A DNA stretch of 56,477 nt from Bacteroidales bacterium (GTDB lineage: Bacteria; Bacteroidota; Bacteroidia; Bacteroidales; JAFGUD01), in contig JAFGXO010000032.1 of the NCBI GenBank assembly GCA_016936595.1, positions 1 to 56,477 on the forward strand. Direction: 5' to 3'. This document shows positions 6,223 through 56,477 of this stretch, in pieces; position 1 is the first letter of the stretch, and every line of letters starts with the position of its first letter. The position numbers were made by a program, and so were the translations under genes. The notes under the pieces are model-generated. The model was not told where the DNA came from, made no database searches, and worked only from the letters and a program-made list of their open reading frames with translations.

Positions 6223-9183
6223 ATGAGAACAAAATTTTTACAGTTTTTGAATCTGTTGTTGATTTTTTTTATCACAACAAGTTCAATACATGCTCAACGA
6301 ACAATTTCCGGGCAAGTTATAGATGCTCAAGGATTAGTAATTCCGGGAGTTACCGTTATTGAAAAAGGAACGAGTAATGCAGTTATTACTAATGTCGCCG
6401 GAAAATATTCTTTGACAGTTACTACTAATCCGGTTACATTAGTATTTTCTATGATGGGGCTTAGAACAGAAGAGGTGGAAATAACCGGAAACACTTTTGA
6501 TTTAACCATGTATGCAGATGACCAAGACTTGGGAGACGTTGTTGTTATTGGCTATGGACAAGTTAAAAAACAAGATGCAACAGGAGCTATATCTACTTTA
6601 GGTTCAGACGATTTTATTCAAGGAGCAGTAACTTCACCTCAGGATTTACTTACCGGAAAAATTGCCGGAGTTAGTATTACTTCAAACGGAGGTGCTCCCG
6701 GTAGCGGTGCTGTTATCAGAATTAGAGGAGGATCTTCTCTCTCTGCAAGTAATGATCCTCTATTTGTTATTGACGGTATTCCTATCGAAAATGATGGTGT
6801 TGCCGGTATGAGAAACCCTCTAAACGTTATCAATCCTGATGATATAGAGTCTTTTACAGTATTAAAAGATGCTTCGGCTACTGCAATATACGGATCAAGA
6901 GCTTCTAATGGTGTGATTATTATTACAACAAAAAAAGCATCACAAGGTTCTCCGTTAAAAATTTCATACACACTAAATACTTCTATTAGTACATTGCCCA
7001 CAACATTAGATGTTTTATCTGCCGACGAATACAGAACTCTTGTATTAGATAAGTTTGGAGAAGAATCTATTCAAGCTAATTTACTTGGAACAAGTAATAC
7101 TAACTGGCAAAATGAAATCTATCAAAGTCCTATAAACCAAGAACATAATTTGTCTTTGTCAGGGTCTATAAAATCGCTTCCTTACAGAGTTTCTTTAGCA
7201 TACACCGATCAACAAGGCATTCTTAAAACAGACGAATTAAATCGTATCAGTGGAGCAGTTATGCTTACACCTTCTGTATTGGATAATCATTTAAAGCTTA
7301 CCATAAACGCCAGAGGAATTAATGTGCAAAATCATTTTGCAGATGGTGGTGCAGTAGGTGCAGCTGTTAGATTTGACCCAACTCAACCTGTAAATGTTGA
7401 TGTTCAAACTTATGGTGGATATTATGCATGGCTAAGTGGTGGAGGTACTCCAATAACTATTGCAACAAAAAATCCGGTTGCTTTACTTAACCAAAGAGAA
7501 AATAATTCAAATGTAAACAGAGTTTTGGGTAGTGTTTTAATGGATTATAAACTGCACTTTTTTCCCGATTTACATTTTAATGTTAACGCTGCTTATGATT
7601 ATTCAGTTAGTTCCGGTACAAATGTAGTACCTGACAATGCCGCCTTCGACTGGGATCCTTCCGGCGTAACAAGCGGTTATAGTAGTAACTATGATCAGGA
7701 AAAACGCAATGAACTTATTGAAACGTATCTGAATTATTCAAAAAATATTTCATCAATAAGTAGCAAAATTGAATTTATGGGCGGATATTCTTGGCAACAT
7801 TTTTATATGAAAGAAGCTAATTTTTCAACAAATTATATAGGAGACGCAGACACTACAAGCAACAATAATGCTACTGAATATTACTTAGTTTCATTATTTG
7901 GAAGAATGAATTATACTCTTTTAGATAGATTTGTTTTAACCCTGACTTTACGTGATGATGGTACTTCCAGATTTGCACCCGAATCTCGTTGGGGCTTATT
8001 CCCCTCGGCTGCTTTTGCTTGGAAAATAAACGAAGAAAGCTTCCTGAAAAATTCAGATATAATTTCTGATCTTAAATTAAGAATTGGATACGGTGTTACC
8101 GGACAACAAAATATTGGACAGGGAAATTATCCTTACTTAGCTCGTTATACATATTCTTATGCCAATGCCGCTTATCCTTTTGGAGGCGCATATTACAATA
8201 CTTTAAGACCCGAAGCGTATAATTATGGACTAAAATGGGAAGAAACAACTACTTATAATGTAGCACTTGATTACGGATTATTTAAAAATCGCATCGTTGG
8301 TTCAATTGATTTTTATAAAAGAGTTACAAATGATCTTCTTAACGTAATTTCCGTTCCGGCCGGAACAAACTTTAACAATACAATCCTTAGTAATATTGGA
8401 AGTCTTGAAAATAAAGGCTTAGAATTTAGTGTTAATTTTAGACCAATTGTTAAAAAAGATATTTTCTGGGAATTTGGATTTAATATTGCTTATAATCAAA
8501 ATGAAATTACAAAATTAACTGTTGTTGAAGACTCTGCATACATTGGTGTTGAAACAGGTGGAATATCAGGTGGAATTGGAAATACAGTTCAAATGCACAG
8601 TGTTGGTTATCCTGCTTCTACTTTTTATTTAATGCAACAAATTTACGATACCGACGGAAATCCGATCGAAGGTGCTTATGTTGACAGAAATGAAGACGGA
8701 GTTGTTGATGAACAAGACAGATATCTTTCTGAAACCCCAACTGCAAATTATTTAATAGGATTTAATACTAACTTTAATTACAAAAATTTTGACCTAAGAC
8801 TTTCAGGTAGAGCAAGTATAGGAAATTTTGTTTATGATAATATTAGTTCTGTTAATGGATTATATATCGATATTTATAATTCTGCCGGATACATGAACAA
8901 TGTTACAAACGCTATTTATCAGCCAGGTTTTACCGACTATCAACTAAAGTCTGATTATTACATGAAAGATGCTTCCTTTTTAAAGGTCGATAATATTAGC
9001 TTAGGATATACAATTAAAAAATTATTTACTGATAAATTAAGTGCAAGAATTGGTGCGAACGTACAAAATGCCTTTGTTTATACCAAATACAACGGTTTAG
9101 ACCCCGAAATTTTTGGAGGAATTGACAATAACATGTATCCTCGCCCAAGAATTTATTCTTTAAGTATTAATATTCAATTTTAA
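6223..9183 (+). CDS. susC: SusC/RagA-family TonB-linked outer-membrane transporter
   Basis: The 986-aa product has a signal peptide (ends ...SSIHAQ) and a CarboxypepD-like domain (RTISGQVIDAQGLVIPGVTV). The SusC TonB-box region DLGDVVVIGYGQVKKQDATG comes next, then a plug domain with GSGAVIRIRGGSSLSASNDP and PLFVIDGIP, and the barrel, ending PRPRIYSLSINIQF. Length and motifs match SusC. It forms the transport barrel closed by the SusD lid in the outer membrane and imports oligosaccharides with TonB energy. susD follows after 18 bp and susE after a further 35 bp, a starch-utilisation-type arrangement. The start ATG at 6223 is supported by the signal peptide. The ligand is probably alpha-glucan or maltodextrin, because of the SusE partner (inference). 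Confidence 0.95.
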   Translation: MRTKFLQFLNLLLIFFITTSSIHAQRTISGQVIDAQGLVIPGVTVIEKGTSNAVITNVAGKYSLTVTTNPVTLVFSMMGLRTEEVEITGNTFDLTMYADDQDLGDVVVIGYGQVKKQDATGAISTLGSDDFIQGAVTSPQDLLTGKIAGVSITSNGGAPGSGAVIRIRGGSSLSASNDPLFVIDGIPIENDGVAGMRNPLNVINPDDIESFTVLKDASATAIYGSRASNGVIIITTKKASQGSPLKISYTLNTSISTLPTTLDVLSADEYRTLVLDKFGEESIQANLLGTSNTNWQNEIYQSPINQEHNLSLSGSIKSLPYRVSLAYTDQQGILKTDELNRISGAVMLTPSVLDNHLKLTINARGINVQNHFADGGAVGAAVRFDPTQPVNVDVQTYGGYYAWLSGGGTPITIATKNPVALLNQRENNSNVNRVLGSVLMDYKLHFFPDLHFNVNAAYDYSVSSGTNVVPDNAAFDWDPSGVTSGYSSNYDQEKRNELIETYLNYSKNISSISSKIEFMGGYSWQHFYMKEANFSTNYIGDADTTSNNNATEYYLVSLFGRMNYTLLDRFVLTLTLRDDGTSRFAPESRWGLFPSAAFAWKINEESFLKNSDIISDLKLRIGYGVTGQQNIGQGNYPYLARYTYSYANAAYPFGGAYYNTLRPEAYNYGLKWEETTTYNVALDYGLFKNRIVGSIDFYKRVTNDLLNVISVPAGTNFNNTILSNIGSLENKGLEFSVNFRPIVKKDIFWEFGFNIAYNQNEITKLTVVEDSAYIGVETGGISGGIGNTVQMHSVGYPASTFYLMQQIYDTDGNPIEGAYVDRNEDGVVDEQDRYLSETPTANYLIGFNTNFNYKNFDLRLSGRASIGNFVYDNISSVNGLYIDIYNSAGYMNNVTNAIYQPGFTDYQLKSDYYMKDASFLKVDNISLGYTIKKLFTDKLSARIGANVQNAFVYTKYNGLDPEIFGGIDNNMYPRPRIYSLSINIQF

Positions 9184-45527: not shown

Positions 45528-46157
45528 TTATTGTTTTAAATAGGTATAACCTCCTATTTCAAGAGTAGTTGCATCTATAAAATTATAGCTCATAGTATAA
45601 TTGCCTACATTTGGAATGTTTAAATATAATTGTTTTGAACCTTCATTATAGGAAAAAGTTCCAATATCTGTTCGAGTTACACCTGTTGAACCATTGAATT
45701 TGTTATATTGAAAAGAGTTGTCTGCATTAAAAGTGTATTTGGCATAACTATTCTCATGTTCGAAATCCCAAGCATCATCTCTCCAAGCACCAATAAATGG
45801 ATTACTTGGTGTTGATGGTCCACTTTGCAGTACAGAAACAATCTGTACCATACCATCTTTTGTTGTTACTGTAATGTTACCACTTCTTGAACTTTCGGTT
45901 GTGTTTTCCTGATAAGTTACCGAAAATGCACCGTTGTCTTCACCTGATGCTGTTCCCACTGTCAGCCAACTTTGGTCTGCTGTTGCTGTCCAACTTGTGT
46001 TGCTGGTAACATTTATTGAGAAACTACCCGCTTCTTTTGCTAAACTCTGGCTTGTTGGCGATAAAGTTAGCAACTCTTCTTTATTACAACCAGTGAAACT
46101 AATCACTACTGCCATTAAGGCAACCGCCACAATACTGAAAAAATTTTTCTTTTTCAT
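45528..46157 (-). CDS. BACON-domain lipoprotein
   Basis: The 209-aa lipoprotein (lipobox ISFTGC) has a BACON domain at about 30-115: LTLSPTSQSLAKEAGSFSINVTSNTSWTATADQSWLTV, then GNITVTTKDGMVQIVSVLQ. The C-terminal domain (GAWRDDAWDFEHENSYAKYTFNADNSF, ...IGGYTYL) looks like the lipocalin-like fold often fused in small Bacteroidota lipoproteins. BACON modules are proposed to bind glycans or mucin at the cell surface. It directly follows the long palindrome at 46222-46387 and is transcribed away from the toxin-antitoxin-like pair. No partner hydrolase is encoded nearby. Confidence 0.85.
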   Translation of the reverse strand: MKKKNFFSIVAVALMAVVISFTGCNKEELLTLSPTSQSLAKEAGSFSINVTSNTSWTATADQSWLTVGTASGEDNGAFSVTYQENTTESSRSGNITVTTKDGMVQIVSVLQSGPSTPSNPFIGAWRDDAWDFEHENSYAKYTFNADNSFQYNKFNGSTGVTRTDIGTFSYNEGSKQLYLNIPNVGNYTMSYNFIDATTLEIGGYTYLKQ

Positions 46158-46221
46158 AAAAATAATTATTTGTTTGCCGTCAATTCCCCAAAAAGCAAGA
46201 TTAAATTAATTTTAATTATAA

Positions 46222-46387
46222 AAAAGCGTGGGAACTGTAACTTATCCGTTTTCAGAGGTATCGCCAAACACCCACAGTTACAAATAAGAACAGCCCACGC
46301 CACAAGCGTGAGCATTCGTCTTATTTCTTGTAACTGTTTTGAAAATTGGCGATTTTCTGAAAACAAGAAAATAAGCTAAACGCTTTT
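46222..46387. repeat. 166-bp imperfect palindrome between AbiEii-like and BACON genes
   Basis: The element starts AAAAGCGT and ends ACGCTTTT. Nested inverted segments match inward: CTTAT with ATAAG, GTTTTCAGA with TCTGAAAAC, ATCGCCAA with TTGGCGAT, ACAGTTACAA with TTGTAACTGT, and ATAAGA with TCTTAT. An alternative pairing exists inside the left half: GCGTGGG (46226-46232) with CCCACGC (46294-46300). The whole piece could fold as one long hairpin in either strand. It is clearly richer in GC than its flanks and is non-coding. It could be an integron attC-like site, a MITE or a structured RNA. Track ORFs at 46166-46366 and 46170-46379 lie inside it and are not genes. Confidence 0.75.
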
Positions 46388-46455
46388 AACTTTTAATATT
46401 TTAATTTTTTATACCATTGGCACTATTTTAATTTGATTGCAAAAATAATATTTTT

Positions 46456-47088
46456 TTAAACAAACAATTTTATTTGTTCCTGAATTTCTTTTTTTACTTC
46501 TTCCCAACTAACTTTTTTAATCATTATTGGGTTAATTTCTGTATCGGCATCTTCAAAATATCCAAGACTTTTTACTACATGAAAATAATTTACATTAGGA
46601 AATTTCTTTTTAAATAAATCAAACATTTCTTTGAGTGTAAATTCTTTAAGCAAAAAGTAAATGTCAAAAAAATCTTTTTTTGACCCACGATTTCCAATTG
46701 CTGAAAGTTTCATTGGAATTATATCTTCTTTTGAAAGCATTCTAATTCCGTCTATTTCAAGAACTTTTTCAATTAACGGATAAGGATATTTTATGATGTC
46801 AATCTTTATATAATTGTTTGAATTGTCTGGATACTCAATTTTGTTTATTACTGAATTTTCAAACTCTGTAACAATTTCTAATTTGTAGTTTTTTCTTAAT
46901 TCCGATAATATTTGTTGTGGTTCAAAATCAATGTCCGCAAACAAATCTAAATCCACAGAAATTCTGTGTCCGAGCTGTAAAGCAAGTGCAGTTCCGCCAA
47001 CAAGATTAAATGGCTTTAAGCATTTTTCTTGCATTAACTTTTTTAAAAGTTCCAAAGTTTTTGGATAGACTGCGGTGTATTGTAGCAT
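46456..47088 (-). CDS. AbiEii-type nucleotidyltransferase (toxin-like)
   Basis: The 210-aa product has the nucleotidyltransferase core FNLVGGTALALQLGHRISVDLDLFA (about 27-51), which holds the GG-x-x-L and the S-V-D-L-D-L-F metal-binding carboxylates. It continues with VLEIDGIRMLSKEDIIPMKLSAIGNRGSKKDFFDIYFLL, the AbiEii/AbiGii signature. Such proteins are toxins of type IV TA/abortive-infection systems that modify nucleotides or tRNA. Its start overlaps the upstream DUF6922-like gene by 46 bp, suggesting a tightly coupled pair. The module sits between unrelated housekeeping genes, consistent with horizontal acquisition. Confidence 0.85.
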   Translation of the reverse strand: MLQYTAVYPKTLELLKKLMQEKCLKPFNLVGGTALALQLGHRISVDLDLFADIDFEPQQILSELRKNYKLEIVTEFENSVINKIEYPDNSNNYIKIDIIKYPYPLIEKVLEIDGIRMLSKEDIIPMKLSAIGNRGSKKDFFDIYFLLKEFTLKEMFDLFKKKFPNVNYFHVVKSLGYFEDADTEINPIMIKKVSWEEVKKEIQEQIKLFV

Positions 47089-47333
47089 TTGAATTCTGTT
47101 TTTGGTATATTAAAATAAAAACTGCAAAAATTTAATGTTCTTTTATCTAAAAATTTCATCTTTTGGATTTCTTCTTTAATTTTTTCTATTCCGTAAAATA
47201 TTTTTAATTGCTCCCAATCCTGTATATTTCCACGCAAAAGTATCCTGTTGATAATATGTCGTGCATTTTTTTCAAAATCTGCACTTTCAATATCAACGTC
47301 CCAAAATAATGATTTATCAAGTTCAAATTCCAT
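47043..47333 (-). CDS. DUF6922-like partner of the AbiEii-type protein
   Basis: The 96-aa protein reads LDKSLFWDVDIESADFEKNARHIINRILLRGNIQDWEQLKIFYG, then IQKMKFLDKRTLNFCSFYFNIPKTEF. This pattern (FWD-x-D, hIINRhL-x-R-G-x-x-x-D, hDKRTLNF-x-x-x-YF) matches DUF6922-type small proteins commonly encoded just before AbiEii-like nucleotidyltransferases. It has a winged-helix-like helical content and probably serves as the antitoxin or cognate regulator. The 46-bp overlap with the downstream gene supports translational coupling. Confidence 0.75.
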   Translation of the reverse strand: MEFELDKSLFWDVDIESADFEKNARHIINRILLRGNIQDWEQLKIFYGIEKIKEEIQKMKFLDKRTLNFCSFYFNIPKTEFKCYNTPQSIQKLWNF

Positions 47334-56029: not shown

Positions 56030-56206
56030 AATTTAAAATTTATGCTCAAATTTAGTAATTTATCGAATACCAGCAAAACGCGCTATGTTGAGCATCGTAA
56101 CTCATTAATAATCAATGCATCACGGCGTTTACGAGTCGTCGATTATCAAACGGTTAGATAGTTGTATCGATTTTAATATATTTTAACATTTTAGTGTTGA
56201 TACAAT

Positions 56207-56450
56207 CCCGACCCGTATGTAGTGGGGAACTTTAGTACCACAAAAAAGTCCCGAAGGGACGACCCGTATGTAGTGGGGAACTTTAGTACCACAAAAAAGT
56301 CCCGGAGGGACGACCCGTATGTAGTGGGGAACTTTAGTGTCACAAAAAAGTCCCGGAGGGACGACCCGTATGTAGTGGGGTACTTTAGTGCCACAAAAAA
56401 GTCCCGGAGGGACGACCCGTATGTAGTGGGGTACTTTAGTGCCCCCAAAT
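56207..56450. repeat. Tandem repeat array of 51-bp units (about five copies)
   Basis: GACCCGTATGTAGTGGGG recurs with exact 51-bp spacing at 56210, 56261, 56312, 56363 and 56414. Each full unit contains GTCCCGGAGGGAC or a variant, a small inverted repeat (TCCC...GGGA). The units differ by a few substitutions. Because 51 is a multiple of three, both strands stay open (SRRDDPYVVGNFSTTKK on plus, SLRDFFVVLKFPTTYGS on minus), which explains the two track ORFs. The array may continue past the window end. It looks like a known kind of Bacteroidota intergenic repeat, not a gene or CRISPR. Confidence 0.9.
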
Positions 56451-56477
56451 ATAAAATAACATTTTTATAATACACCA

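Follow-up and report, generated by a model that had tools for sequence, protein, structure and literature searches.

A covarying quasi-palindrome upstream of genes across the Bacteroidota, probably a cis-acting structured leader RNA

The window analyzed here is a stretch of 56,477 nucleotides, contig JAFGXO010000032.1 of the Bacteroidales bacterium assembly GCA_016936595.1. It contains a nested quasi-palindrome of 166 bases at positions 46222-46387, situated between genes that are encoded on the - strand. The upstream gene (46456-47088) belongs to the AbiEii nucleotidyltransferase toxin family (Pfam PF08843) and is accompanied by a DUF6922 gene (47043-47333, PF21956), its probable partner; both are neighbors that lie outside the element. 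The downstream gene (45528-46157, start codon at 46157) encodes a BACON-domain lipoprotein (PF19190/PF13004). Pfam agrees with the initial annotation, which had placed the palindrome between a toxin-antitoxin-like pair and a BACON gene. Also on the - strand, the sequence TATTTTTG at 46440-46447 matches the Bacteroidota-type -7 box (TAnnTTTG), with a possible -33 TTG upstream of it at 46465-46467. A two-codon mini-ORF, ATG GTA TAA (ATGGTATAA, 46409-46417), lies between this predicted promoter and the element and is a candidate leader ORF. A small hairpin with the loop motif TTTTTGGGGAATTG (46172-46199), which recurs in Bacteroidales copies, lies between the U-run that closes the element and the start codon. 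At the far end of the window, positions 56191-56475 hold short direct repeats, RRDDPYVVGNFS on the + strand and YPTTYGSSLRDFF on the - strand, which are open in both directions.

The palindrome is real, as its folding energy is -34 kcal/mol as single-stranded DNA (z -6.9) and -56.1 kcal/mol as RNA (z -7.6), and neither value is equalled by any of 200 shuffled sequences. The nesting consists of an outer stem, AAAAGCGT/ACGCTTTT, followed by two middle stems and a center, CCACGC/GCGTGG, and the alternative pairing GCGTGGG/CCCACGC that had been pointed out earlier is also found in 46222-46387. With a GC content of 0.39 the element is richer than its flanks (0.20 and 0.15), again as first described. 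The conserved element is a little longer than the palindrome first reported, extending from about 46215 to 46401, and its functional strand is the - strand, on which the covariance model R1 scores 184.7 bits, compared with 29.8 bits on the + strand. Four copies of one similar motif make up the element, which is thus a palindrome of palindromes. Its 5' half ('RE', 46302-46385 on the - strand, AAAGCGTTTAGCTTATTTTCTTG ... CAAGAAATAAGACGAATGCTCACGC) has a local fold of -19.4 kcal/mol and its 3' half ('LE', 46215-46301, - strand, GGCGTGGGCTGTTCTTATTTG ... GGATAAGTTACAGTTCCCACGC) one of -32.7 kcal/mol. Each half is a potential hairpin, and the apical loop of the 5' half, ATCGCCAA, is complementary to that of the 3' half, TTGGCGAT. 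The GC hairpin that the 3' half can form stands directly before the U-run (46220-46225, - strand), a terminator-like tail that is nearly invariant in alignment A1.

In partial support of the initial annotation, BLAST, pattern, and covariance searches reveal a dispersed, multi-copy family in Bacteroidota that often lies near variable accessory genes. The genome of the window carries a second copy on another contig (89% identity), a BLAST search of 99 genomes from the same order detects copies in 22, and, among 198 genomes from the whole phylum, the covariance model, whose E-values are rough, detects the element in 23, closed genomes included. Copies occur in unrelated contexts rather than only beside conserved neighbors, and so neither outcome named by the initial annotation as a refutation (a lack of further copies, or invariably the same neighbors) is seen. 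An exact 19-letter core pattern retrieves 68 stretches from public genomes, all labelled Bacteroidota or Chlorobiota, with carriers in Flavobacterium, Tenacibaculum, Formosa, Polaribacter, Lutibacter, Gelidibacter, Cellulophaga, Leeuwenhoekiella, Aequorivita, Sunxiuqinia, and Mariniphaga; a profile search extends nearly all of them to full elements. A copy in Phocaeicola massiliensis scores 82.5 bits with the covariance model. Many of the carrier genomes are fragmented metagenome-assembled genomes, and gene calls are simple ORFs. The window region and nine related loci have no family match in Rfam 15 at E up to 1, and literature searches of open-licence papers returned no description of the element; the family is apparently undescribed.

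The fold is a conserved secondary structure whose compensatory change is very strong. Across 64 aligned copies, 95.6% of the cells in the long hairpin are paired, and 330 cells are doubly changed, compared with 101.5 in column shuffles (none of 500 reaches 330) and with 33-58 in slid-partner controls, through which alone the relatedness of the copies is handled. These changes involve 14 pairs of the hairpin. When the halves are swapped between copies, a copy's own halves pair better in 97% of cases (t -22.6). Wobble pairs are distributed unevenly between the strands, with 178 G·T against 11 A·C on the gene-sense (-) strand, and by subtraction in the per-pair table 51 against 10 once the four positions at which G·T is commonest or most frequent are left out. 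Wobble that falls almost wholly on the gene-sense strand indicates that this strand is under selection, although G·T wobble occurs in single-stranded DNA too and a folded-DNA role of the same strand is therefore conceivable. Conservation is highest in the central GGCGTGGGCTGTTCTTATTTG, followed by CCACGC and the terminal T-run.

The position of the element relative to genes is regular. In the set of 101 distinct full copies, 91 of the 96 downstream genes and 70 of the 88 upstream genes lie on the sense strand. The distance from element to start codon in Bacteroidales-type loci has a median of 53 nt (interquartile range 42-61; 38-66 nt in 51 of 77), and that from the end of the upstream gene to the element a median of 126 nt (interquartile range 52-210); in several Flavobacteriaceae islands, element and start codon are only about 3-11 nt apart. 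A TAnnTTTG box is present upstream of 67 of the 101 copies, mostly 25-71 nt before the element, whereas shuffled sequences yield 11.6 on average and 20 at most. Many Bacteroidales copies also have a two-codon ORF about 32 nt before the element. The in-frame pattern ATG-N3-TAA occurs 45 times in 118 copies, compared with about 8 in shuffles, and there are few occurrences at the out-of-frame spacings of 1 or 2. Beyond the T-run and before the start codon, a hairpin with a TTGGGGATTG-like loop and a varying stem displays weak covariation (t -3.1, 40 copies). Judged from sequence, the element is located between a predicted promoter and a start codon in fixed orientation, and the layout of promoter box, element, and start codon is that of a 5' leader.

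The genes that follow the element are diverse. By a crude hydrophobicity rule, 53 of the 77 proteins encoded downstream in Bacteroidales-type loci look signal-peptide-like, compared with 78 of 338 control ORFs. A second, diverged subfamily has the same layout, with the promoter box directly upstream, and precedes TonB-receptor (SusC-like) operons and ECF-sigma-like genes, while an HTH regulator gene diverges on the opposite side. At loci L225, L224, L230, and other Flavobacterium-like loci, the leader stands at a SusC/SusD-like operon with a divergent XRE-type HTH gene, and AAA, methylase, and ParB-like genes lie beyond the latter, possibly marking a defense-gene hotspot. The Phocaeicola massiliensis copy (L154 6005-6235, from the ~40.6 kb record OY726002.1) follows a promoter box and precedes a histidine kinase gene in the rpoC-rpsL region, between rpoC and rpsL/rpsG/fusA. 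In Flavobacteriaceae, the element often comes after a mobilization block (DUF5712, ParA, and a small RHH-like gene) and is followed by variable cargo. Five Flavobacteriaceae isolate loci (L091, L104, L109, L150, and L153) share a conserved island with BtgA/BfmA-like, DUF5712 (relaxase-like), ParA, and ~77-aa RHH-like genes, which is directly followed by the element and then by variable cargo. A resemblance to retron msr/msd, in which an outer repeat is followed by TTAGC, was dropped because the downstream genes are not reverse transcriptases.

The long hairpin has a predicted competitor in which the two halves fold separately. Alone, the 3' half folds at about -32 kcal/mol into a GC stem with a U-run, with a mean z of -4.7 over 64 copies. 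At most positions in the base of this terminator-like stem, over 90% of copies form the pair, its wobble pairs are 129 G·T against 6 A·C, and three further pairs are compensated between the subfamilies. The upper stem has no within-subfamily covariation, and own halves beat swapped ones in 54% of cases, which is not significant. The 5' hairpin has moderate covariation support, with own pairing better than swapped in 67% of cases (t -7, 92 copies); this swap test was used since RNAalifold returns no consensus for the 5' halves alone, where the two-subfamily alignment fails. The two folds, terminator-like and long hairpin, are predicted to be mutually exclusive. For the window copy, the long hairpin has an energy of -65.0 kcal/mol, compared with -52.1 for the two separate halves; since the long hairpin is the lower in energy, a nascent transcript would pass through the local hairpins first and refold afterwards unless these were held.

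We consider the element most likely to exert on/off control in messenger RNA rather than to be a gene-capture site or a jumping element, and from sequence features it is probably a cis-acting structured leader RNA. Fixed orientation and spacing, the promoter box, the sense-strand wobble, and copies that are few and diverged are together characteristic of a 5' leader RNA. The ability of the 3' half to fold as a GC hairpin with a U-run makes attenuation the leading candidate mechanism, and we tentatively propose a terminator/antiterminator switch or translation-coupled attenuation. In such a model, transcription would start on the - strand about 30-60 nt upstream of the element, as the promoter box suggests, and the transcript would run through the element into the BACON gene. 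The RNA would fold as the single long interrupted hairpin that covariation supports, and its halves could refold into separate hairpins, the second of which, a GC stem followed by U residues, is predicted to resemble an intrinsic terminator. A signal, which may be a protein, a ligand, or translation of the two-codon leader ORF, would tip the balance between the folds, and this balance would decide whether RNA polymerase or the ribosome gains access to the gene. Two observations fit a leader RNA less well. Its downstream genes have no common pathway, which is unusual for a riboswitch, and it leaves unaccounted for the copies, truncated at their 3' end, that stand behind toxin-antitoxin genes in same-direction arrays.

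Attenuator leaders are among the closest parallels. The leader ORF of tetQ is three codons long. The primary paper on the tetQ leader of Bacteroides CTnDOT is reportedly that of Wang et al. (2005, J. Bacteriol.). Like the tetQ (CTnDOT) and ermC leaders, of which the former comes from the same phylum, the element would be a 5' leader between promoter and gene with a very short leader ORF and hairpins that are predicted to exclude each other. It differs from them in serving many unrelated genes and in its 180-nt length, with a long hairpin that covaries phylum-wide around a nearly invariant center, and its switch is a predicted one. A published list names tetQ as an attenuator that acts on translation (PMC5418344). 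The element also resembles the orphan riboswitch-like candidates of Weinberg et al. (2010, PMC2864571), which were found by covariation upstream of genes and have no assigned ligand, but unlike them it has no Rfam counterpart and its genes do not point to one metabolite.

The truncated copies retain about 24, 55, or 95 nt from the 5' half and lie between toxin-antitoxin or similar genes in some genomes; where they form same-direction arrays, a full copy stands at the array end. Examples are located at 7568-7606 and 8358-8446 in L045, 5308-5399 in L064, 8246-8305 and 8666-8760 in L066, and, on the reverse strand, 535-632 and 1189-1290 in L103. Each truncated copy in these four loci is followed by a gene pair, often a PIN-domain toxin-antitoxin pair, with a promoter-like box of its own, and the truncation points cluster past the first motif or past the 5' half. 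Another repeated hairpin, CTTTGyAGyTTCAC...AACTGCAAAG, lies immediately upstream of a truncated element in two contexts (L045, ~7500-7570; L067, ~8010-8075).

Such arrays bear on an integron-like site, the first of the two identities suggested by the initial annotation. In this reading, a recombinase cuts and joins the folded strand, and single genes, often toxin-antitoxin modules, enter as cassettes with uniformly oriented elements between them. Elements or 5' halves do lie between toxin-antitoxin and other genes in same-direction arrays (L073, L045, L103, and L120), the element lies at the junction of mobilization block and cargo in the Flavobacteriaceae islands, there are four inverted boxes, and the fold is strand-specific. 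An attC site is likewise a long imperfect, strand-specific, intergenic hairpin with variable sequence and a conserved fold, sometimes found between toxin-antitoxin cassettes. However, the element is tightly spaced from the downstream start and loosely from the upstream stop and so belongs to the downstream gene, the opposite of an attC at the 3' end of its cassette. Its conservation also peaks at the tip and not at the base, its strand is the gene-sense strand, and most copies are solitary. At a spacing of about 50 nt, the boxes are too widely separated to form one tyrosine-recombinase core, and they lack R/L core spacing; inspection of the aligned ends, AAAGCGTTTAGC / CCACGCTTTT, likewise finds no GTTRRRY/RYYYAAC match, as had been noted before. 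None of 11 element-bearing genomes, among them G000 (85% complete), has an IntI above the TIGR02249 cut-off. An integron-like site is accordingly unlikely.

The second suggested identity, a non-autonomous transposable element that favors sites upstream of genes, either as a MITE or as a REPIN mobilized by a RAYT/Y1 transposase, is improbable. Dispersal would account for the occurrence of ~90% similar copies with unrelated neighbors in genomes of different families and for the many assembly breaks close to copies, and one RAYT-like gene adjoins a copy in L074. On the other hand, complete or near-complete genomes carry only 1-7 diverged copies each, with a within-genome identity of about 80% and a near-identical pair in a single tandem duplication, which does not look like a recent burst; a MITE burst is unlikely. 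The fixed strand and start-codon spacing would also be unexpected under random insertion. REPINs (PMC3116915) are similarly palindromes of smaller palindromes dispersed between genes, but they comprise two short REPs, compared with 180 nt here, and the element differs in its low copy number and in having no link to Y1 transposases. These are absent from two of 10 element-bearing genomes, and only one weak element match occurs among 30 Y1 loci; with Y1 genes elsewhere unflanked by copies, a REPIN/RAYT system was rejected.

The truncated copies in same-direction arrays leave a small place for a cassette-capture role beside that of a leader RNA. It is quite improbable, yet conceivable, that the element doubles as leader-RNA switch and gene capture point, the same folded strand acting as RNA or as DNA. 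If true, this dual role would account for the arrays of genes in one direction, for the 5' halves left truncated behind toxin-antitoxin genes, and for the constant position at the boundary with the cargo in mobilizable islands, and it would let toxin-antitoxin and defense cargo join behind the element. Least probable is a single-stranded DNA structure for the replication or transfer of mobilizable islands (a single-strand origin, an oriT-like site, or a ssDNA promoter), which would suit a long imperfect hairpin with conserved unpaired parts that follows DUF5712, ParA, and RHH-like genes in Flavobacteriaceae, but most copies lie outside such islands, the Phocaeicola copy is in the chromosomal rpoC-rpsL region, two core patterns found no element in 2.9 million viral contigs, phage records did not contain it, and plasmid records are nearly empty, their one match being the Phocaeicola contig, a probably chromosomal sequence with ribosomal protein genes.

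The leader RNA reading, which we favor, is testable in cultured strains. The human gut and many soil and marine communities are dominated by Bacteroidota, yet few regulatory RNAs are known from them. A very strongly covarying leader of 180 nt would be common to lineages from Flavobacteriaceae through Phocaeicola, standing before surface proteins, nutrient receptors, and the cargo of mobile islands. If the element is such a leader, current annotation pipelines would be overlooking a common means of controlling envelope and accessory genes.
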